Below are positions 3,685 through 41,646 of a stretch of 41,646 bases of DNA, one piece after another. Under the pieces are notes generated by a model. That model was not told the DNA's origin. It ran no database searches and saw nothing but the letters and a program-made list of their open reading frames with translations. Position numbers and translations under genes: made by a program. Each line of letters starts with the position of its first letter. Position 1 is the stretch's first letter. Source of the DNA: Helicobacteraceae bacterium. Lineage in GTDB: Bacteria; Campylobacterota; Campylobacteria; Campylobacterales; Sulfurimonadaceae. The stretch lies in NCBI GenBank assembly GCA_026988515.1, contig JALSLA010000072.1, forward strand, positions 1 to 41,646, written 5' to 3'.

Positions 3685-4752
3685 CTACTGAAGCTGGAAA
3701 TTGACCAATGTTCCGCTTAATGATTTTAAAAATGCCTCAAGGGCATCGAGCTGCTCTTTGGAGAGTTCCACGCCGATCTGGTGCTTGCTCATAATTTTAA
3801 CGGCTTCGCGGAGTTCTGTAACGGCACCGTTGTGAAAATAGGGTGCCGTATCGGCAATATTGCGTAGAATCGGAACGCGAAAGGTACGTTCACCGTTTTT
3901 ACCCATAAAATCGCCTTTGTTTTCAAAGGGAAAAGGGTGGTACATTTTAAAATTGAGACCAATGTGACTAATATGACGTCCTTTGGTAATTTCGTTAAAG
4001 CTTGTCGTGAGGTTAATGATACTGTTATAGTCGCGTAAAGGAAATTTTTGAATGCGTTGCCCGCCGATACTTGATCCAAAATGACACCCTTTGCACCCCA
4101 TATCAATAAAGAGATTCAATCCGCGTTGCTCTTGTGATGTCAGTGCCGTTTCGTTGCCGTCTAAAAAGTCGTCGTAACGGCTGCGAGTTACCAAAGTTTT
4201 TTCATAAGCGGCAATGGCTTTGGTAATCGTATCGAATGTAATGGTTTGCGTTTTGAAGGCATTATAGAAAAGGGGTGCATAGATTGGATTGTTCTTTACG
4301 CGCGCTTCGACCAGTTCGGGAGTTGATGCCATTTCAAAGGGGGCCTGCATGGGTCCTTGTGCCTGCTCTTGGAGGGAAGCGGCCCGACCGTCCCAGAAAA
4401 AGTGTTTGGAGTAGGCGGTATTTAAGACGGTAGGGCTGTTCAGATGACGGGGGTTTTCAAGATTGCGGTAACCTATTGCCGTCGGTTTTCCGTCATCACC
4501 GCCTTTGGTAATATCATGACACGAGGCGCAAGAAAGGCTACGGTCTTTTGAGAGGTTGGCGTCGAAAAAAAGTTTTTTTCCTAAAAGTATTTTGGGAATA
4601 TTGAGTGGGTTTGTCGGGTCATCTACCTCTGCCTTGAGGGCTTCAAAGGTTGTGGGTATGGAACGCAACCCTTTTTCAAGAGCTTTTTCTCTAAGTGTCT
4701 GATCGGCTGTTGCGCCGATAAACAGCATCATCACGAGTAATATCCATTGCAT
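3685..4752 (-). CDS. Diheme cytochrome c peroxidase (CcpA/MauG family)
   Basis: The 355-residue protein is a periplasmic peroxidase that reduces hydrogen peroxide with electrons from cytochrome c. It starts with a signal peptide (MQWILLVMMLFIGATA) behind a strong AAGGAGG ribosome site. Two heme-binding CXXCH motifs are visible: CASCH at residues 75-79 and CKGCH at 220-224. The spacing of about 145 residues is normal for this family. The C-terminal part carries FRVPILRNIADTAPYFHNGA, a family signature. Length is slightly above the usual 320-350. The gene is transcribed away from purH-type housekeeping genes and follows pfkA on the same strand with an 87-base gap, so it may have its own promoter. 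The family assignment is secure; peroxidase rather than another MauG-type oxidation is inferred. Confidence 0.93.
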   Translation of the reverse strand: MQWILLVMMLFIGATADQTLREKALEKGLRSIPTTFEALKAEVDDPTNPLNIPKILLGKKLFFDANLSKDRSLSCASCHDITKGGDDGKPTAIGYRNLENPRHLNSPTVLNTAYSKHFFWDGRAASLQEQAQGPMQAPFEMASTPELVEARVKNNPIYAPLFYNAFKTQTITFDTITKAIAAYEKTLVTRSRYDDFLDGNETALTSQEQRGLNLFIDMGCKGCHFGSSIGGQRIQKFPLRDYNSIINLTTSFNEITKGRHISHIGLNFKMYHPFPFENKGDFMGKNGERTFRVPILRNIADTAPYFHNGAVTELREAVKIMSKHQIGVELSKEQLDALEAFLKSLSGTLVNFQLQ

Positions 4753-5839: not shown

Positions 5840-5886
5840 TATTGGGATTATACAGTAGCGCGCTATGACTTTCAAACTATTTAAAT

Positions 5887-5905
5887 GATAATGATTCTTA
5901 TTAAA
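5887..5905 (+). promoter_or_regulatory. Fur-box-like site 1 upstream of the porin gene
   Basis: The 19 bases GATAATGATTCTTATTAAA match the classical Fur consensus at 14 of 19 positions, with the left half (GATAATGAT) perfect. It lies about 60 bases before the porin start in a very AT-rich stretch. This suggests repression by iron-loaded Fur. Campylobacterota Fur sites differ somewhat from the E. coli consensus, so binding is inferred. Confidence 0.6.
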
Positions 5906-5932
5906 AGAATCTATTAAGCTAAAATATATTAT

Positions 5933-5951
5933 TATTCTAATAATCATTATT
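5933..5951 (+). promoter_or_regulatory. Fur-box-like site 2 overlapping the porin leader
   Basis: A second match, 14 of 19 positions, whose right half AATAATCATTAT is strong. It ends just before the ribosome site AAAAAGGAA. Two sites about 46 bases apart would allow cooperative Fur binding over the promoter between them. Confidence 0.55.
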
Positions 5952-5965
5952 AAAAAGGAACTTCA

Positions 5966-7201
5966 ATGACCCGATTAACCCGCTCTTTAGTAGTAGGTGG
6001 TATGATCACCCTAAGTGCTTCTGCGAGTGTCGAAGAGGATATTGCGCAGTTACAAACAGAACTGGAACATTATAAAGAGATGACACAGAGCCTGATTGAT
6101 GAGGTTTCTGATGTAAAATCAGGGTTTAACTATGCCGTGGTTGATACGACGCAGGCACATTACGGTATGGGAAATGCCGCGTCAAAAGTCTACTATTCAA
6201 AGTCGCCGCTTTCCATTGGCGGGTATGGTGAGATGTACTGGGCCAATCCCGATAATGGTGATAATTTTGCCGATGTGTATCGGTTTATTCCCTATATTGG
6301 CTACCGTTTCAGCGATCAGATTATTTTAAATACCGAAATAGAGTTTGAACACGGCGGCGATAAGGTAGTGGTTGAATTTCTCTATTTGGATTTTCTGCTC
6401 AATACAAACGTGAATATTCGTCTGGGAAACCTGTTGGTTCCTATGGGCTTGATCAACTTGCGACATGAACCGACACTTTTCAATACGGTACAGCGTCCTG
6501 AACTGGAGCGGAATTTGATTCCTTCAACATGGAATGAAAATGGTGTGTTGGTGTATGGCAGTGTCGGTGAAAGTGATGTTGAGTATACATTGGGACTGGT
6601 CAATGCATTGGATCTGAAATCGGGCAATGAAGCATCGCAGACCCAATGGATACGCAAAGGGCGCATCGGTTCACGAAACAAAGGAGTCATGAATCGCGTG
6701 GCCGTTGTCGGACGTTTGGACTATCGCGGCTACAACGGGCTTCTTATCGGTGCTTCGGCATATTATGGCGATGCCGCACAAGGTGCGGTAAGCGGTTCAC
6801 GAGCATTTATCTATGCCTTGCATGCAAGTTATGAGTCGGGTGCTTTTAAGGCAAAAGGGGTCTATACGGCCACATCAGTCAGTGATGCTGAAGTGTGGAA
6901 TAATCCTGAAGCGGCTACCAAAGCGCAAGGCTATTATGTCAATGTCGAATATAATGCGTTTGCACCACTTTCAACCTCAATGCGTCTGCCGGTTTTTATT
7001 CAGTATGAGGCGTATGATCCGACCCAGAAAACCCTTTCGCCGCAAAATCCCGATAACGAGGTGCGTCATATTAATGTCGGCATCAATTTTTTTCCGCATG
7101 AGCAGGTGGTTTTGAAAATGGACTATATGATGACCCGTTACGATAATACGCTCAAAGCGGATGCCAATACCTTTGCTTTGGGTTTGGGTTTTGTCTTTTA
7201 G
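5966..7201 (+). CDS. Outer-membrane porin (OprO/OprP-like beta-barrel)
   Basis: The 411-residue protein has a signal peptide (to about residue 21, ...TLSASAS), then a short coiled coil (about 22-50, EEDIAQLQTELEHYKEM) that probably forms a periplasmic trimer stalk. A beta-barrel rich in alternating aromatic strands follows and ends in ...LGLGFVF, the C-terminal aromatic expected for outer-membrane insertion. GNLLVPMGLINLRHEPTLFN is characteristic of phosphate-selective-porin-like families. AAGGAA precedes the ATG. It heads a group of four co-directional genes, 10 bases before the FMN-binding gene, and has two Fur-box-like sites in front, so iron-regulated uptake of a small solute or iron complex is a reasonable inference. 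The substrate cannot be read from the sequence. Confidence 0.85.
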   Translation: MTRLTRSLVVGGMITLSASASVEEDIAQLQTELEHYKEMTQSLIDEVSDVKSGFNYAVVDTTQAHYGMGNAASKVYYSKSPLSIGGYGEMYWANPDNGDNFADVYRFIPYIGYRFSDQIILNTEIEFEHGGDKVVVEFLYLDFLLNTNVNIRLGNLLVPMGLINLRHEPTLFNTVQRPELERNLIPSTWNENGVLVYGSVGESDVEYTLGLVNALDLKSGNEASQTQWIRKGRIGSRNKGVMNRVAVVGRLDYRGYNGLLIGASAYYGDAAQGAVSGSRAFIYALHASYESGAFKAKGVYTATSVSDAEVWNNPEAATKAQGYYVNVEYNAFAPLSTSMRLPVFIQYEAYDPTQKTLSPQNPDNEVRHINVGINFFPHEQVVLKMDYMMTRYDNTLKADANTFALGLGFVF

Positions 7202-7211
7202 AGGAGCACGG

Positions 7212-7745
7212 ATGGGACATCTATTTATTGGAGTACTGATGGCGGCAGGATGGCTCCATGCGATGCCTCTGATCTCGCCGTTTGATGCAATCAAGCAGAG
7301 TTATGGACATAATGGCGTACACATTAGCAAAAAGAATCTTCTGTTAACCAATAAGGAAGCTTTGGCAGTGTCAGCGCTGGCCAAGGTAAGAATGACGAGT
7401 AAAATTTACCGTATTTTTAAAGTGAGTGATGCGAACGGCATTCATGCGTTTGGTGTATTAATTACCAAAAAAGTACGCAGTAAAAATGCTGCCGTACTCT
7501 ATCTGATTGAGCATGACACGGGAATGCTTAAAAGTATTGAAATTGTTGCGTTTAACGAACCTTCGGAATATATTCCCTCGAAAAGATGGTTGCAGCAATT
7601 TGACGGAAAAAAATCAGGAGACGTGTTACGTGTGGGTACGAACATTCCCACCATTACGGGTGCCACCATGTCGGCACGGACGTTGACCGACGGGGCACGG
7701 TTGGCACTGGCAATTTACGAGATCGTATTACGAGGTAAGCCGTGA
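7212..7745 (+). CDS. Secreted FMN-binding-domain protein, probable ApbE target
   Basis: The 177-residue protein starts at the ATG at 7212, ten bases after the porin stop and behind GAGGAG; a longer frame from 7161 overlaps the porin and has no ribosome site. A signal peptide covers about residues 1-17. The C-terminal half matches the FMN-binding domain of NqrC/RnfG-type proteins. TGATMSARTLTDGA at 149-162 fits the flavinylation motif, with Ser154 in the position where ApbE attaches FMN. ApbE itself is encoded 1.5 kb away on the other strand. The protein probably carries electrons in the periplasm between the membrane partners next to it and an acceptor. Covalent flavin attachment is inferred from the motif only. 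Confidence 0.85.
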   Translation: MGHLFIGVLMAAGWLHAMPLISPFDAIKQSYGHNGVHISKKNLLLTNKEALAVSALAKVRMTSKIYRIFKVSDANGIHAFGVLITKKVRSKNAAVLYLIEHDTGMLKSIEIVAFNEPSEYIPSKRWLQQFDGKKSGDVLRVGTNIPTITGATMSARTLTDGARLALAIYEIVLRGKP

Positions 7746-8212
7746 AATTTTTAATACATAACGATCTTCATAGCAGATCTTTGATGCGTCTGTTGTTGGC
7801 GGGACTTCAGGTGTTTGTACTGCTTTTTTTATTGTTTGATGTTGTGTATAAATCCGAACAGATCGGTTTTTCGTATGAAGATGTCACTACCTATCTGTTT
7901 GGCAGTGAAGCACTGTTTATAGACGCCGTTGTATTAAAAGCGCTGTTGGAGATGCTTCATGCCGACACCTTTTTCATTATGATGGTATTACTCACTTTAG
8001 GAAGCGTGTATGCACGTATCTGTTCTTCAAAGAGGCGTGCGTTGTATGCAGTACATACGGTGATGATTGCGGCATTTGTTGCCATCATATCGCTATTGGC
8101 GGCACGATACATCAGCGAATATTTTATCGGACTGTGGATGGTCGGCTTTTGGCTGTGGCATCTTGGTGCAGCCGGTATGTCATTGGAGATACTGTGGCAG
8201 TTGCGACGTTAA
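7742..8212 (+). CDS. Four-helix inner-membrane protein, member A of a tandem pair
   Basis: The 156-residue protein starts with GTG, overlapping the previous stop by four bases (GTGA), so it is translationally coupled to the FMN-binding gene. Four hydrophobic helices are visible (about 17-36, 70-93, 99-120, 125-150). Between helices 1 and 2 is GFSYEDVTTYLFGSEALF, and helix 2 begins LEMLHADTFFIMMV. The next gene has the same layout, with GFTVEQLQQYYCGNDLLF and EVALPHALGMGLFMMV at the equivalent places, so the two are paralogues. The His at the start of helix 2 is shared and could bind heme or metal. I do not recognise a named family. Position suggests it feeds or receives electrons from the flavoprotein. 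Confidence 0.8.
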   Translation: MKFLIHNDLHSRSLMRLLLAGLQVFVLLFLLFDVVYKSEQIGFSYEDVTTYLFGSEALFIDAVVLKALLEMLHADTFFIMMVLLTLGSVYARICSSKRRALYAVHTVMIAAFVAIISLLAARYISEYFIGLWMVGFWLWHLGAAGMSLEILWQLRR

Positions 8213-8673
8213 TGAAAACTATTTATTGCCATGCTATTGTCTATTTTACACTTTTTGGCGTACTCCTTCTTGGAAGCGGTATATGGCTTTGGGGTTTGAA
8301 AGCGGGATTTACGGTTGAACAGCTGCAGCAGTACTATTGTGGAAACGATCTGCTCTTTATGCAGGCAAAAAGTACTCAAGGAGTATTGGAAGTGGCACTG
8401 CCGCATGCGCTGGGTATGGGACTTTTTATGATGGTCACTGCCCATTTTATGCTTTTTGTGCCACAACGACACCGCAGACAGATCATACGGCTCATTGCAG
8501 TGTGGCTTGTCAGCGCCTTGGTAAGCATTACCGCACCCTTTGGCATTGTTTACGGTTGGAGCGGGTTGACAGAAGCCAAACTGGTGGCACTCGTAGTGTT
8601 TCAGATACTCGGTTTTTATCTGTTATGGAGGGTGTTCCAGGCCGCATTTACGGATCGCCGTGAATCATTTTAG
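8212..8673 (+). CDS. Four-helix inner-membrane protein, member B of a tandem pair
   Basis: The 153-residue protein starts at the ATG at 8212, sharing one base with the previous stop (TAATG). No separate ribosome site is visible, so it is coupled to the gene before it; an in-frame earlier start at 8134 would overlap that gene. It has four predicted helices and the same soluble loop and His-bearing second helix as its neighbour (see 7742-8212). A few differences, such as Cys in YYCGND, suggest the two copies have specialised and may form a heterodimer. Its 3' end overlaps the end of the convergent cytochrome gene by 26 bases. Confidence 0.8.
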   Translation: MKTIYCHAIVYFTLFGVLLLGSGIWLWGLKAGFTVEQLQQYYCGNDLLFMQAKSTQGVLEVALPHALGMGLFMMVTAHFMLFVPQRHRRQIIRLIAVWLVSALVSITAPFGIVYGWSGLTEAKLVALVVFQILGFYLLWRVFQAAFTDRRESF

Positions 8674-9229
8674 AGATAATGCCCTCTTTGGTCGTAAATT
8701 CATGACGCAATACACCGGCAATGTGCATCACTACAAAGAGAATGAGTGGCTGCATCATCCATTCGTGAAAATCTTTCAGACTCTCGGCGAACGTTTTTGA
8801 AATACCTAAAAACTCATGAAAATAGAGTACGGTTCCACTCAGTGCCATGATGAGAATCGTGGCGCAAAGCAGCAGATAGGTTCCGGCTTTAAGCTTTTGC
8901 ATACCGGTAGTTTTCATGACGGTGATGATAGGGAGTTCTGATTGTTTGGTTACCACCATATAGATGCGAAGTGCTATGGAAATACCTAAAATAACGGCAA
9001 AAGTATAGTGCCACTCCCACATGGGTGCGCGGATGGCTTTGGCAACAACTTTAGCACTCTCTGCCGTAATGTCGGTACCCAGTTGTGCCAGCTGGGTCTG
9101 AATGATTTCGGCATTGCTGCGCCAGCTTAAAAAGGTCTTACGAAGCAGTACCGTAGCCAGCAGTCCTAAAACCGACAGTGCCATCAAGCCGTGCCAGATG
9201 CGATATATCGGGGTGAATTGTTTACTCAT
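8648..9229 (-). CDS. Cytochrome b561-family membrane protein
   Basis: The 193-residue protein has four transmembrane helices (about 11-27, 73-92, 108-128, 157-172), each of the main ones bearing a His suited to bind heme: His13 in IYRIWHGLMA, the WEWHYTFAV motif, LYFHEFLG and the ILFVVMHIAGVLRHE segment. This is the prokaryotic b561/b-type diheme family that passes electrons across the inner membrane. Its start overlaps the end of apbE by eight bases, so the two form an operon. It lies opposite the FMN-binding gene group, consistent with a role as its electron donor. The exact electron route is inferred. Confidence 0.87.
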   Translation of the reverse strand: MSKQFTPIYRIWHGLMALSVLGLLATVLLRKTFLSWRSNAEIIQTQLAQLGTDITAESAKVVAKAIRAPMWEWHYTFAVILGISIALRIYMVVTKQSELPIITVMKTTGMQKLKAGTYLLLCATILIMALSGTVLYFHEFLGISKTFAESLKDFHEWMMQPLILFVVMHIAGVLRHEFTTKEGIISKMIHGDP

Positions 9230-10172
9230 TGTAATCTCCTTTGGGGTATGGAATAAGGTAGGTTGAAAGCTGAGCGCTCTGTAGGTGTTCTTTTTGTGTC
9301 GTTATGATGACATACGCAAGATCGAGATTGTTTAAAAAACGAATAGCCCGCTCTGTGGGCATGACCGAAGCGGCCGTTGCATAGGCGTCAAGGTCGCTGT
9401 TGCTCAATGATGTGGAGACAAGGGTAATCGAGGCAAACGTTTGTTGTGCGCGTTTACGTTTGGGGTCAATAAGATGGTTGTGTGCTACCGTACCGACATA
9501 GCGGTTGTAGTTACCGCTTGTTGAGATGGCACTCTGACGATGGCGCGTGCGGTAACGTGTTGTACGTGTCGGATCAAAAGGATTTTGTATGGCAACATCG
9601 CATTGGTCGAGACAACGGATGTCGCCTCCGGCGGCAATGACTCCTGAAGTGATATTGTGGTCGCGATACAGCGCGGCAACGGCATCGACTCCAAACCCTT
9701 TTCCCATACCGCCTAAATCTAAGGTTATATCAGAAGGTGTGACGGCACGATGCGGTGTTATGTGCACGGCACCGAAGTTGAGCGTAGCACTCTGGAGTGA
9801 TGCCGAAGTCGGAATCTGTTCATCTGCTCCGAAACGGTAGCGTTTTTTGGTAATGGCGCCGACCGTAATGTCAAAGTACCCCTCTGTTTGCACCCAATAA
9901 CGCTCAGAGAGTCGCAGTGCGTTGTAGGTGTCAGAACCAATGGAGATATTATGCTCACGGTTAAGCCGATAGATATCGGCACTGCTACGGTAACTTGAGA
10001 GTGCGTTTTCTACAGCTTTAAAGCGTTCAAACCCTGCTTCTATCCAGTCAAAGTGATGTGCCGGCAGCGAGATGGTAACAACCGTTCCCATATGGACTTG
10101 AGATCGTGAACTGTACTCCTGTGCCGTGAGCGATACAGACAAAGAGATTATCAGTACAACCCATTGAAACAC
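9222..10172 (-). CDS. apbE: FAD:protein FMN transferase
   Basis: ApbE transfers FMN from FAD to a Ser or Thr of exported flavoproteins, using magnesium, in the periplasm. The 316-residue protein starts at a GTG behind GAGGAG and has a signal peptide (MFQWVVLIISLSVSLTA). Motifs seen are MGTVVTISL, LDLGGMGKGFGVDAVA, VIAAGGDIR, STSGNYNRY followed by HLIDPKR, and SNSDLDAYATAASVM with the metal-binding Asp. No lipobox Cys is visible, so it is probably soluble. The likely substrate is the FMN-binding protein at 7212-7745, the only target motif seen in the window. It is co-transcribed with the b561 gene downstream. Confidence 0.95.
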   Translation of the reverse strand: MFQWVVLIISLSVSLTAQEYSSRSQVHMGTVVTISLPAHHFDWIEAGFERFKAVENALSSYRSSADIYRLNREHNISIGSDTYNALRLSERYWVQTEGYFDITVGAITKKRYRFGADEQIPTSASLQSATLNFGAVHITPHRAVTPSDITLDLGGMGKGFGVDAVAALYRDHNITSGVIAAGGDIRCLDQCDVAIQNPFDPTRTTRYRTRHRQSAISTSGNYNRYVGTVAHNHLIDPKRKRAQQTFASITLVSTSLSNSDLDAYATAASVMPTERAIRFLNNLDLAYVIITTQKEHLQSAQLSTYLIPYPKGDYNE

Positions 10173-16275: not shown

Positions 16276-16405
16276 TCGGTTTATTAAGGAAGTGTTAAAG
16301 CATAATAATGTTATAGTTTAAAGCTATTAAAAAGCTGAGCAAACAGGCAAAACAAAAGATCGTTTGGTTTTTTAGTAAGTATCTTTCTTGATAAGGGGTA
16401 TTTTG

Positions 16406-17476
16406 ATGAGAGAAAAAATACTTGTAGTATTTATGGCTCTTGGGCTAAGTTTTGGCATGCTTCATGCAACCGAGGCTTGTTCAGAAATTGAAGTCATGGC
16501 AGTTCAAGAGACACTGCAAAGTTACAGCGCTTCTGAAAGCGAAACGGTGGAGGTAGTGATTCATAATCCGGACTATTGTCTGTCAACCATTACCGATATT
16601 TCACTAAGTGATTCGGAAAACTTTGAGCTCGATCTTGATTTTGGTGCAGTTCCATGCGGTAGTGATGAGTTTTCTATGCGCGGATATCAGTTTTGTACAG
16701 TTGGTGTAACATTTAAACCGACAACGTCTGACGGTGATTTTGAGACGGATGTACAAGTCAGTACGACATCAACGCCGGTAGCCTGTGCTACGGTTGAAGG
16801 TGAAGTAGTTGTATGTGATGAATGCAATAGCGATGATGATGACGACAATGATGACAGCGACGGCTCTTGTGGACATGGCGGACATGGTCATCATGGTGGA
16901 AACTGTGGACATGGCGGACATGGCGGTCACGGTGGACATGGAAAATGTGGCATCGACCGTGATGATGATCGTACGGCATGCTCCCATCGACATAACCGCT
17001 GGTGTGGTTACAATGAAGATGACAACGATGACAATGACAATGGACACACGTGTCCACCTTTGGATCCTGTCAAAAAGCTCATGGATTCCGATGCAAGAAA
17101 CTACATTAATTGTCTGAACCTGATCAATCCGGTCGGAACATCGGTAGTCGAAGTATATGATGATATTGTCTACTTCAATGACTATAATGAAAAAGAGGTA
17201 GGTCTTGCAACATTTTCATTGGATGATGTTGTTGATTTTCCATCAATGTTAACCTTTACGGCAACTATTGAAGAAGGGCTCTTTATGCCGCGAATGAGCG
17301 GTGACGACGGACAGTACATGACGACTGACGTTAAAGTAACGAAGCAATACGGATTTATGTTTCCGAATGACTTTGACTTAACCGAGTTGAATTTCACGAC
17401 ATGGGGACGTTCGTTTACAGGTTCTATTGAAGATCTTTCCGTTACGGAAGTAACCAATGAGAATCTTCTTGACTAA
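16406..17476 (+). CDS. Secreted protein with a His/Gly/Asp-rich metal-binding-like linker
   Basis: I do not recognise this 356-residue protein as a known family. The ATG at 16406 follows AAGGGG and begins a signal peptide (MREKILVVFMALGLSFGMLHA). Residues about 25-135 look like an immunoglobulin-like or choice-of-anchor fold (VEVVIHNPDYCLSTITDISL, CTVGVTFKPTTSDGDFETDV), with paired Cys. The middle (about 139-220) is extremely biased: runs of Asp/Asn flank a block of GHGGH repeats with interspersed Cys. Such segments commonly bind zinc, nickel or copper. The C-terminal 130 residues form a separate, unrecognised beta-rich domain. It is monocistronic, with hairpins on both sides. An extracellular or periplasmic metal-binding or matrix role is inferred only. 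Confidence 0.8.
   Translation: MREKILVVFMALGLSFGMLHATEACSEIEVMAVQETLQSYSASESETVEVVIHNPDYCLSTITDISLSDSENFELDLDFGAVPCGSDEFSMRGYQFCTVGVTFKPTTSDGDFETDVQVSTTSTPVACATVEGEVVVCDECNSDDDDDNDDSDGSCGHGGHGHHGGNCGHGGHGGHGGHGKCGIDRDDDRTACSHRHNRWCGYNEDDNDDNDNGHTCPPLDPVKKLMDSDARNYINCLNLINPVGTSVVEVYDDIVYFNDYNEKEVGLATFSLDDVVDFPSMLTFTATIEEGLFMPRMSGDDGQYMTTDVKVTKQYGFMFPNDFDLTELNFTTWGRSFTGSIEDLSVTEVTNENLLD
16870..16951 (+). repeat. Tandem GGH-coding repeat
   Basis: Short degenerate repeats of ggacatggcggacatgg type encode the His/Gly block of the secreted protein. Such arrays expand or shrink by slippage, so copy number may vary between strains. Confidence 0.7.
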
Positions 17477-36963: not shown

Positions 36964-37449
36964 CTAAAACTTTAGTTGTTCGATGCTCTTTTTTGCCAGA
37001 CCCCAAGGAAGTCTCCGCCCTTTAGACTTCATAAGTTCAAAAACATTTAATGCATCATCTGGACGCATCAAGCCTTGTTTGACAAACTGCTCAATAATCC
37101 AGATGGTACCCTTTAATTCAACACCTTCAGCCACTGCAACTTTTCGAAGCTGTGCATCTCCTGTGATTAGTGGGCATTCTTCCTGCTTTGCCAAAACAAA
37201 AGCAAAAAAATCGTTATCGCTCGGACCATTGTATTGTGTTTGTAAACTACTAACATATTCGATACTCTGAGAATTTAATTTTTTTATCTGTAATCCGTAT
37301 CTTGGCAGGTCACCATGATGTTCTTCCAGCTCTTCCATATATAAAATATCGGGTACTGCAAACTCAAAAGGGAGTTCAAACATTTGTTCCAATATTCCGC
37401 AAACATCAAGGTCTATAAAGATGTTTGCATCACTAATAAGAAGCTGCAT
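36964..37449 (-). CDS. PIN-domain protein, probable toxin-like RNase
   Basis: The 161-residue protein has the PIN fold's acid residues: Asp7 in LLISDANIFIDLD, Glu39/Glu40 in LYMEELEEHH, Asp78/Asp80 in GPSDNDFFAFVLAKQ and Asp98 in LITGDAQLRKVA. These bind metal for RNA cleavage. Its start overlaps the end of the XRE/ImmA gene by 17 bases, so the two are made together. That pairing of a regulator/metallopeptidase with a PIN protein resembles a toxin-antitoxin module. Which member neutralises which is not visible, and the catalytic residues look intact. Confidence 0.83.
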   Translation of the reverse strand: MQLLISDANIFIDLDVCGILEQMFELPFEFAVPDILYMEELEEHHGDLPRYGLQIKKLNSQSIEYVSSLQTQYNGPSDNDFFAFVLAKQEECPLITGDAQLRKVAVAEGVELKGTIWIIEQFVKQGLMRPDDALNVFELMKSKGRRLPWGLAKKSIEQLKF

Positions 37450-38494
37450 TATTACCTTCTAGCATTCGCATACGATAAAATGCCATTTGTGGCATGTCCA
37501 TAAGCTCAGCAGCTTTTGACTCACTGATATAGCCTTCGGCCAAAGCATGAAAAATCAACTGCTCAAAATGGTGTGGATTTTCCGCTGCATACGGCTCTGG
37601 TTCATTTTTACGCCATCCTCGCTTTGAAAACTCTATGACTAAACTTTTATGATAGTGTGGTTTAATAACTCCTAAATCTTTGGCGCGATAAAGTATCCCT
37701 GCCATGGAGATTCCAAACTCCTGTTTGAGAAGTAACAGCTCACGCAGTTCTAATCGTGTTCGGTGCTCTCCAAGTTCTGCATAGAGTGCACTATCTGGCA
37801 ATAAAAAGGCTCCTGCAAATCGATCACTTGCTCGTTCTTCATCCATATCTGGAGAGAGACGAGCTTCTAAAACGAGATGCCCTAATTCATGTGCCATAGT
37901 AAAACGCTGACGATCACCTGACCAAGCTTTTGATATTACGATAATATGATAACCATTCACTATCGCAGCAAGACCATCAAATTTACTATCCGCACTCTCC
38001 TCGATTTCAAATACTCTTATCCCAACACTCTCTAGCACATCAACAAGCTCAGGGATTGGATTGAGTCCTAAGTCCCACTTATGACGGACAGTTTTCGCTA
38101 TATCTTCAATCTCATCAAGACTTTCAATAGTATCTGGTAGGCCTTTAGGTACTACAAATTTTGGTACAGGTGGCTGAGGAAAAAGAGACTCAAGCTCTAA
38201 GCGCTGCTCAATCTTGTTAAGAATTTTTCCCTCTATCATGGCTAACTTCTTTGGAGAAAGTGAGCTTTTTTTACGATACTCAGGTTTTTCCAATTTTAAA
38301 GGATTTGGACGTAAAAAATAGCCTGCTTTTACATGTAGTGCTTTTGCTAGTTTCATCAGCATAGTAGAATCGGGAGTTAAAAGTCCTTTTTCATATTTAT
38401 TAATTGCAGTTTGACTTACCCCAACACTATCTGCAAGAGCTCGAAGAGATAAGCCAGAAGTTTTACGGGCACGTACTAACCGTTCTGCTATCAT
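37433..38494 (-). CDS. XRE-type regulator fused to an ImmA/IrrE-like metallopeptidase
   Basis: The 353-residue protein joins an N-terminal helix-turn-helix (SLRALADSVGVSQTAINKYE, about 16-35) to a zinc peptidase domain with HELGH at 202-206 and the third-ligand segment DEERASDRFAGAFLLP. Such proteins (COG2856) cleave or sense a partner repressor. The C-terminal 50 residues are unassigned and contain a run of charged residues. It heads an operon with the PIN gene and probably binds the two large inverted repeats just upstream of its start. Confidence 0.88.
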   Translation of the reverse strand: MIAERLVRARKTSGLSLRALADSVGVSQTAINKYEKGLLTPDSTMLMKLAKALHVKAGYFLRPNPLKLEKPEYRKKSSLSPKKLAMIEGKILNKIEQRLELESLFPQPPVPKFVVPKGLPDTIESLDEIEDIAKTVRHKWDLGLNPIPELVDVLESVGIRVFEIEESADSKFDGLAAIVNGYHIIVISKAWSGDRQRFTMAHELGHLVLEARLSPDMDEERASDRFAGAFLLPDSALYAELGEHRTRLELRELLLLKQEFGISMAGILYRAKDLGVIKPHYHKSLVIEFSKRGWRKNEPEPYAAENPHHFEQLIFHALAEGYISESKAAELMDMPQMAFYRMRMLEGNNAASY

Positions 38495-38917: not shown

Positions 38918-41646
38918 CTAAACCTTCCCACCAACACCCTTAAACTTCTCAACAAAAGCAGAAATTTTTTGAAATACACTCTGCTTTTTGCTCAAGTATT
39001 GCGGATTAAGCGGGCTCATTTTTGGCAAGATTGCATTGAGTTCAGTACCGTTTTCACTAGCATATTCCCGTTTTAATGATGAGACAATATAGCGCTTAGC
39101 TGCTTCTTCATTTAGGTTTTCATCACTTATGAGCTCCTCTGCTTCGCGTTGTTGCTCTGCTTGAGCAAAAGCAAAAAAAGCATCAATTACACTTGCTTTG
39201 TCACCTAGTTCATCTAAATCTGTTTGGTTGATAAAATCAACTAAGAGGCTCTCTTTGGCTCGATTGCCTAGACTTGCACGAATGAGTCGGCGCACCTCTT
39301 CAACAAGGGAGGCTTTATCTTTTGTCTTTTTGTTATGTTCAAAAATGAGTTCTAAAATATAGTCAAGATTGATCTCCTGAGATTTGAGTAAATCCACTTC
39401 AAAAACCACATCATCCCAATCTACAGTGGCGCTCTCTTTGGCTTTCGCAGATTTCTCACGGCGAAGCCAATCACGAATATCATTATATGTTGAACGATAG
39501 TCTTGAAGTGTTCTCTCGCTTGGCACTTTAATCTCTTCCATCACCTTTAAATCATCATCATTTAAATAATACTTAGCTTTAAACTCTTCTAGAGCACTCT
39601 CATCATTCATATCTACATTTTGCAACTCTTTAAGCACAACAAACTCATCATAGTTTTGCAGTACATTTTCAACACGCAGATATTCACCAAAAAGTTTGGC
39701 AAAATCTTTTTTATCTTTCTCTGTAACTATTGTTTCAGGGTCACCAAAACGCTCCTCCAACTCCCGAGCCACATCAATAAAGCCACGCCGTGCATCACCA
39801 GTTGCTGTATCACTAAAGCCCTCCATATACTCTTTATAGCTCTTCTCAAGCACTATATTTTTCGTGTTTTTGTCACCAAAAAGCGTAATAGCATCTACGG
39901 TTGCTTTTTCTAAATCACGAAAGGTTACAATGTTTCCAAAACTCTTCGTAGCATTATATATACGGTTTGTACGTGAATATGCCTGCATAAGACCGTGATA
40001 GCGTAAGTTTTTATCTACAAAGAGAGTGTTGAGACGCGGTGCATCAAAACCTGTTAAAAACATACCTACAACGATGAGCAAATCAACCTCCCCGCTTATT
40101 ACTCGCTTGGCAAGATCACGGTAGTAGTTTTGAAAACTTTTACTATCAACACCATAAGAGGTTTGAAACATTGCATTATAATCATTAATGGCTGCGTTTA
40201 AAAACTCTTTAGCGCTTGAGTCCATCGCTGATGGCTCAAAATTCTCATCAACAATATCTCCTACTGCGTCTTGCTCCTCATTTGGTGCAAAAGAGAAAAT
40301 AGTAGCAACCTTGAGTGGTTTTGTACTCTCTTTTTGCAGCTTTTTAAATGCCTCGTAGTAAAGTTTGGCAGCTTCAACACTACTTACTGCAAACATCGCA
40401 TTAAAACCTTGAGCGGCACCTGTAAGCCTGTGTGTTTTTTGTTTGAAGTTATTTAAGATGTATTGTGTGATTTCATCTATTCTATCTCTATGCAGTAGTG
40501 CTTGTTTATTTTCTAATGCTGTAAGTTTTTTCTCATCTGTCTCACACTCCAAGTCTTTAAACTGTGGTCGCACATCATTATAATCTACTTTGAACTTGAG
40601 TACCTTTTCATCTCTTATGGCATCAGTGATGACATAGGAGTGCAACTCTCGCCCAAAGACACTAGCAGTTGTCTCAGCTCCTAAAGCATTTTCAGGAAAG
40701 ATAGGCGTTCCTGTAAAACCAAACTGATAATATTTCTTAAACTTTTTTTGCAGATTTTTTTGTGCCTCGCCAAATTGGCTCCTGTGTGCCTCATCAAAGA
40801 TAAAGACCACTTGACTTTGGTAGATTGCTAAATCATCTTCACTTTTCATGAGATTGTTAAACTTTTGAATGGTAGTGACGATGATTTTATTATCTTGTTT
40901 GGCGATGTTGCGTTTAAGTCCTGCCGTACTCTCTGAACCGTTTACGCTATCGGGTGAGAAGCGTTGATACTCTTTCATCGTCTGATAGTCCAAATCTTTT
41001 CTATCCACGACAAAAAAGACTTTCTCTATAAACTCTAACTCTGTAGCTAAGCGTGCGGCTTTAAAGCTTGTGAGTGTCTTCCCTGAGCCTGTAGTGTGCC
41101 AGATATAACCACCACTCTCAGTTTTACTCCAGTTTTTTGTCTCATAAGAGCTTTTTATCTTCCAAAGGATGCGCTCCGTTGCAGCTATCTGATAAGGACG
41201 CATCACCAAAAGAGTATTACTTACATCAAAAACCGAGTAGTGTATGAGCACATTAAGCAGGGTCCTTTTTTGAAAAAATGTAGCGGTGAAATCTTTTAAA
41301 TCTCTAATGAGCATATTGTCAGATTTCGCCCAGTTCATCGTAAAATCAAAACTGTTTTTATTGCGTTTGGTAGTGTTGGCGAAGTAGCGTGTATCAGTAC
41401 CATTTGAGATGACAAAGAGTTGGAGGTATTTAAAGAGGGAGTGCTCGGCATTGAAGCTCTCTTTTGAGTAGCGGTGCACTTGATTAAAGGCTTCACGAAT
41501 GGCAACACCTCTTTTTTTCAGCTCTATCTGCACTAAGGGTAAGCCGTTTACTAAAATAGTAACATCATAACGATTGGCATGAGAGCCACTCTGCTCAAAC
41601 TGCTTGATAACTTGCATAGAGTTACGAGCGATGTTCTTTTTATCAA
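38918..41646 (-). CDS. hsdR: Type I restriction enzyme R subunit HsdR, 5' end beyond the window
   Basis: HsdR is the motor and nuclease of a type I restriction system that cuts unmodified foreign DNA. The frame is open to the right edge (first readable codons DKKNIARNS), so about 908 residues of the C-terminal part are seen and the start is outside. The nuclease motif is present: counting from the Met at 41617, [20 protein letters not shown] holds Asp18, Glu32 and Lys34 with the spacing known from EcoR124I. The helicase motor follows with [15 protein letters not shown] (Walker A), [20 protein letters not shown] and [10 protein letters not shown]. No hsdM or hsdS is in the window; they would lie to the right. 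Confidence 0.95.

Follow-up and report, generated by a model that had tools for sequence, protein, structure and literature searches.

The window, that is, the whole 41,646-nt stretch of DNA analyzed here, carries on its forward strand a compact operon encoding an outer-membrane porin with an N-terminal coiled coil (411 amino acids; positions 5966 to 7201), an exported FMN-binding protein, FMNb (177 amino acids; 7212 to 7745), and two four-helix membrane proteins, TM1 (156 amino acids; 7742 to 8212) and TM2 (153 amino acids; 8212 to 8673). The gap between the porin and FMNb genes is 10 nt, FMNb and TM1 overlap by 4 nt, and TM1 and TM2 overlap by 1 nt. Facing this operon on the reverse strand are the genes of an accessory cytochrome b561 (193 amino acids; 8648 to 9229) and of the FAD:protein FMN transferase ApbE (316 amino acids; 9222 to 10172), which overlap by 8 nt. 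All features named in the original prediction are present at these positions, and the domains it assigned are confirmed for ApbE (E=1e-54) and for b561, which matches Ni_hydr_CYTB (E=2e-23). The Porin_O_P model (PF07396) is matched by 19 of 26 porin orthologues at E<=0.01; the window porin itself is unmatched and had no match among PDB sequences. Elsewhere in the window, a MauG/MbnH-like di-heme cytochrome c peroxidase gene lies close to the operon (3685 to 4752, reverse strand), with relatives within the module at two other loci (L062 and L065), and a predicted exported protein (16388 to 17476, forward strand) contains a Gly/His/Asp-rich stretch, GHGGHGHHGG, that possibly binds metal. As judged by eye, an XRE/ImmA-IrrE-like gene overlapping a PIN-like gene (36964 to 38494, reverse strand) and an adjoining type I restriction HsdR-like gene (38918 to 41617) resemble a defence or toxin-antitoxin islet.

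Two Fur-box-like sites precede the porin gene on the forward strand. Box 1 (TGATAATGATTCTTA; 5886 to 5900), with a 12/14 match, is placed immediately 5′ of the −35-like element of a promoter-like sequence, TTAAAA-18-TATATT (5901 to 5930; a consensus match only), which is followed by box 2 (TAATAATCATTATTA; 5938 to 5952), a perfect 7-1-7 palindrome identical to the Helicobacter pylori holo-Fur consensus (PMC4557348). These are the only 7-1-7 sites with at most one mismatch in the 41.6-kb window, where 0.11 would be expected by chance and where none of 100 shuffles contained two. In 26 of 30 loci the porin is preceded by a box with 12 or more of the 14 positions matched, compared with 6 of 283 upstream regions of other genes from the same loci. 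Such boxes also stand in front of the porin in 8 of 9 further loci, one of which (L098) belongs to the same genome as L038; these counts are inflated by relatedness, yet box distances vary and flanking genes differ. In two of the exceptions, L062 and L065, imelysin and DHOR genes come before the porin in a more extended operon, and ApbE has as its neighbor a Fur-family gene equipped with an 11-12/14 box of its own. The genome of the window has two Fur-family genes and a feoAB operon preceded by a 13/14 Fur box. Across that genome, boxes with no more than one mismatch are hardly more numerous than those of a reversed-pattern control (9 versus 7), and the case for Fur thus rests on conservation across relatives. 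The boxes conserved before orthologous porins lend good support to the Fur-type control anticipated in the original prediction, and Fe-Fur probably represses the porin operon.

The gene set of porin, FMNb, TM1, and TM2 with a neighboring ApbE is found again in about 50 loci, which come from many genera of Campylobacterota. Both TM genes occur in 50 of 51 loci, the remaining one being truncated at the edge of its contig. In 44 of the 51, ApbE lies next to the module, either convergent with TM2 (40 loci) or divergent upstream (4 loci), and its retention in two different orientations indicates that the association survives rearrangement. TM1 was detected in 34 of 299 genomes of the order and 38 of 397 of the phylum, and in 131 of 228 genomes and 15 of 18 genera of the window's family, which includes Sulfurimonas; searches for TM1 on plasmids found none. 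FMNb and TM1 are present in the same 38 of the 397 phylum genomes, as opposed to ∼3.6 expected if the two were independent; the FMNb search of the phylum returned one extra match, a chance hit containing stop codons. Furthermore, the five proteins show correlated pairwise distances (r of 0.72 to 0.89). The original prediction had named the lack of a conserved neighborhood as a ground for refutation; the neighborhood is conserved in relatives, and the link it drew between ApbE and the FMN-binding protein persists along with it. One genome, G442, has a split module, with porin-FMNb at one site and FMNb-TM1-TM2 plus ApbE without a porin at the other (L143 and L091). Two TM1 copies carry an in-frame stop codon (G575:C1:979148-979591 and G670:C83:22742-23146), which may reflect decay or assembly error.

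FMN_bind (PF04205) is matched by 29 of 30 FMNb orthologues at E<=0.01. The match of the window FMNb alone is weak (E=0.0024; 18.9 bits versus a curated cut-off of 22); in the PDB, the profile of FMNb finds the RnfG chains of solved Rnf complexes (E=3e-8). The residue that receives FMN from ApbE is the last one of the motif D-x-x-[S/T]-G-A-[S/T] (PMC12052999). The window FMNb carries the variant PTITGAT, in which the predicted acceptor is Thr152. [S/T]-G-A-T is found in all 30 members and the Thr152 position is invariant; the first position, where the motif as published has a strictly conserved Asp, is taken by Pro in 29 members and by Ser in the other. An Asp-to-Ala change in the motif had only a minor effect in one published study. 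FMN would therefore be expected on Thr152, instead of on Ser154 as formerly proposed, which lies two residues past the acceptor position of the published motif.

Neither TM1 nor TM2 belongs to a Pfam family, and Pfam searches with 29 TM1 and 24 TM2 sequences revealed no family shared by the members of either group, nor any match to the families of known flavinylation conduits (PepSY, MsrQ, DUF4405, Nqr/Rnf, NapH, and DsbD); DUF4405 was ruled out as an identity for the pair on this basis. TM2 was likewise ruled out as a b561 homologue (hhalign probability of 0.5%). Searches of PDB sequences with TM1 and TM2 were also without a match, and none of the searches turned up a naturally fused TM1-TM2 protein. 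An hhalign comparison shows the two proteins to be homologues (probability of 98.4%, E=6e-15), which indicates that the pair arose by duplication. AlphaFold confidently predicts both as membrane bundles of four helices plus a short amphipathic helix outside (pLDDT of 91 for TM1 and 94 for TM2). The predicted membrane helices contain conserved histidines, namely, His73 (51/51) and His140 (48/51; absent from two diverged members) in TM1 and His65 and His78 (50/50 each) in TM2. Helix boundaries, together with the positive-inside rule, suggest that His73 and His65 are oriented toward the periplasm and His78 toward the cytoplasm, with His140 in between. His65 and His78 are spaced 13 residues apart; in diheme helices the spacing is usually 14. 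The conserved histidines of TM1 and TM2 occupy nonequivalent positions in the alignment, as would suit an asymmetric heterodimer. The original prediction assigned TM1 and TM2 no role, but their invariant histidines make the pair a better candidate for the electron conduit than b561. On these sequence features, we propose that TM1-TM2 is a split heme-b electron conduit that feeds FMNb, with putative heme ligation by these histidines.

On balance, and with modest confidence, we favor the interpretation that the module works in the cell envelope as an assimilatory ferric reductase induced by iron starvation. Repression of the operon by Fe-Fur would be relieved under iron scarcity, and the outer-membrane porin would let small ferric complexes in. 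In the inner membrane, TM1 and TM2 would associate as a heterodimer, a split heme-b cytochrome whose electrons, probably supplied by menaquinol, travel along His-ligated hemes to the FMN placed by ApbE on Thr152 of periplasmic FMNb. The flavinylated protein would then reduce Fe(III), and FeoB would import the resulting Fe(II). Points that weigh against this interpretation are the Pro in place of the motif Asp, the 13-residue spacing of the TM2 histidines, the loss of His140 from two diverged TM1 members, and the lack of a convincing cytochrome among the Foldseek matches of either model. The analysis supports the theme of periplasmic electron transfer in the original prediction.

The histidines of TM1-TM2 also accommodate a different function, which we regard as unlikely, although it is the best of the alternatives: the pair could be a metal permease or a metal-binding membrane partner, e.g., for Fe(II), in which the histidines and an acidic outer loop bind metal while FMNb obtains electrons from other membrane redox proteins. 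TM1 indeed has a conserved acidic extracytoplasmic loop, GNEExFxDP, and Foldseek comparisons of both models with the PDB yielded weak four-helix matches only (the best being mPGES-1 for TM1, E=0.13), with no convincing cytochrome among them. Moreover, other flavinylation clusters include the iron transporters VIT1 and P19/FTR1 (PMC8238504). However, a permease would leave the flavoprotein without a conserved dedicated electron donor, given that b561 is confined to 2 of 51 loci; FeoB is already encoded in the genome; and TM1/TM2 match no Pfam transporter family.

The genes that surround the module in relatives bear on its substrate. The neighbors of the module in L062 include DHOR, imelysin (M75), a Fur-family gene, and an ABC transporter of FbpABC-like type, and L065 is partly alike. 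In L142, a second FMNb gene lies head to head with an imelysin/DHOR cluster, as does a diverged FMNb-ApbE pair with feoAB in L144. M75 proteins are members of described iron-transport systems (PMC9174327). This set of imelysin, DHOR, FbpABC-like, Fur-family, and FeoAB neighbors agrees with the iron theme first suggested for the locus. Other neighbors would fit a module that serves another or wider acceptor, such as a redox-repair partner in the envelope or Mn(IV)/Fe(III) oxides, and whose tie to iron is coregulation only: an MntP-type manganese exporter lies directly 3′ of TM2 in three genomes (L038/L098, L041, and L042) and beyond ApbE in L072, a five-heme cytochrome c (∼367 amino acids) is encoded in the direction of TM2 between TM2 and ApbE in four loci (L050, L054, L055, and L056), and the operons of L062 and L065 include a MauG-like di-heme protein. 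These three additions are lineage specific, whereas the Fur boxes and the iron-uptake neighbors recur in distant relatives, and we consider a non-iron or broader acceptor improbable. An apparent relative of the five-heme cytochrome c faces a b561 in L162. The second ApbE of the window's genome (G000:C40; L089, 5104 to 7842) adjoins an apparent DUF3570 protein and a thioredoxin-like gene, an arrangement that resembles the described DsbD/DUF3570 flavinylation system (families assigned by eye).

Cytochrome b561, previously put forward as the electron carrier of the system, occurs within the module only in the window's genome and in G002, and this distribution rules it out as a core part; in G003, of the same genus as the window, ApbE abuts TM2 directly. 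That b561 is nonetheless the transmembrane carrier, with TM1/TM2 in some other role, is very unlikely, for although it shares the ApbE transcript in both genomes that have it, possesses several histidines where its family expects them, and has a relative in a sister genus whose neighbor is PepSY-like in L161 and a multiheme cytochrome c in L162 (neighbors judged by eye), it is absent from 49 of 51 module loci, that of G003 included. Its role would instead be that of a helper confined to particular lineages, as with the five-heme cytochrome c or the MntP exporter in other loci.

The gene set is probably a flavinylation-based extracytosolic electron transfer system with a role in iron assimilation, and the ferric reductase reading can be set against described systems of this kind. 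PepSY-like flavinylation clusters (Shewanella, Caulobacter, and Pseudomonas FoxB) are linked to iron assimilation and are Fur repressed in two described cases (PMC8238504). The module shares with them a predicted ApbE-flavinylated partner, a putative His-bearing membrane conduit, and the iron link, but it lacks a PepSY domain, its proposed conduit is a pair of unrelated four-helix proteins, and a porin replaces the TonB receptor. PepSY, MsrQ, DUF4405, and FezC cytochromes were recognized through conserved membrane histidines; DUF4405 and FezC are flavinylation- and ferrosome-linked cytochromes, of which DUF4405 adjoins apbE and FezC was modeled with heme sites built across a dimer (PMC11334425). 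Like those two, TM1 and TM2 are previously unannotated membrane proteins with invariant histidines; unlike them, they make up a pair of distinct but homologous subunits and not a single chain or homodimer, and they fall outside the DUF4405 and FezC families by every test run. The resemblance of FMNb to the RnfG/NqrC FMN-binding subunits extends to its profile match with RnfG chains, whereas the locus is devoid of other Rnf/Nqr subunits and Pro replaces the canonical motif Asp. Finally, the P19/FTR1 iron clusters also have an FMN-binding protein inside an iron-uptake operon (PMC8238504), but neither P19 nor FTR1 is part of the module. The gene set is not named among the flavinylation systems described in PMC8238504 and PMC11334425, whose main texts mention neither Sulfurimonas nor Epsilonproteobacteria nor porins, and literature searches for a comparable described system in Campylobacterota returned none. 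The TM1-TM2 membrane pair may be a truly new part.

In a broader formulation, which we advance tentatively and rate at somewhat short of an even chance, TM1-TM2 would be a new split heterodimeric diheme cytochrome family derived from a tandem duplication and, together with the variant-motif flavoprotein and the Fur-controlled porin, would provide free-living Campylobacterota with a main ferric reductase separate from PepSY, MsrQ, and DUF4405. If the favored interpretation is right, the variant flavinylation motif would broaden the rule by which ApbE targets are predicted, and two undescribed proteins would define a new membrane-cytochrome family. The module would then explain how many sulfur-oxidizing Campylobacterota could gain Fe(II) from ferric sources.
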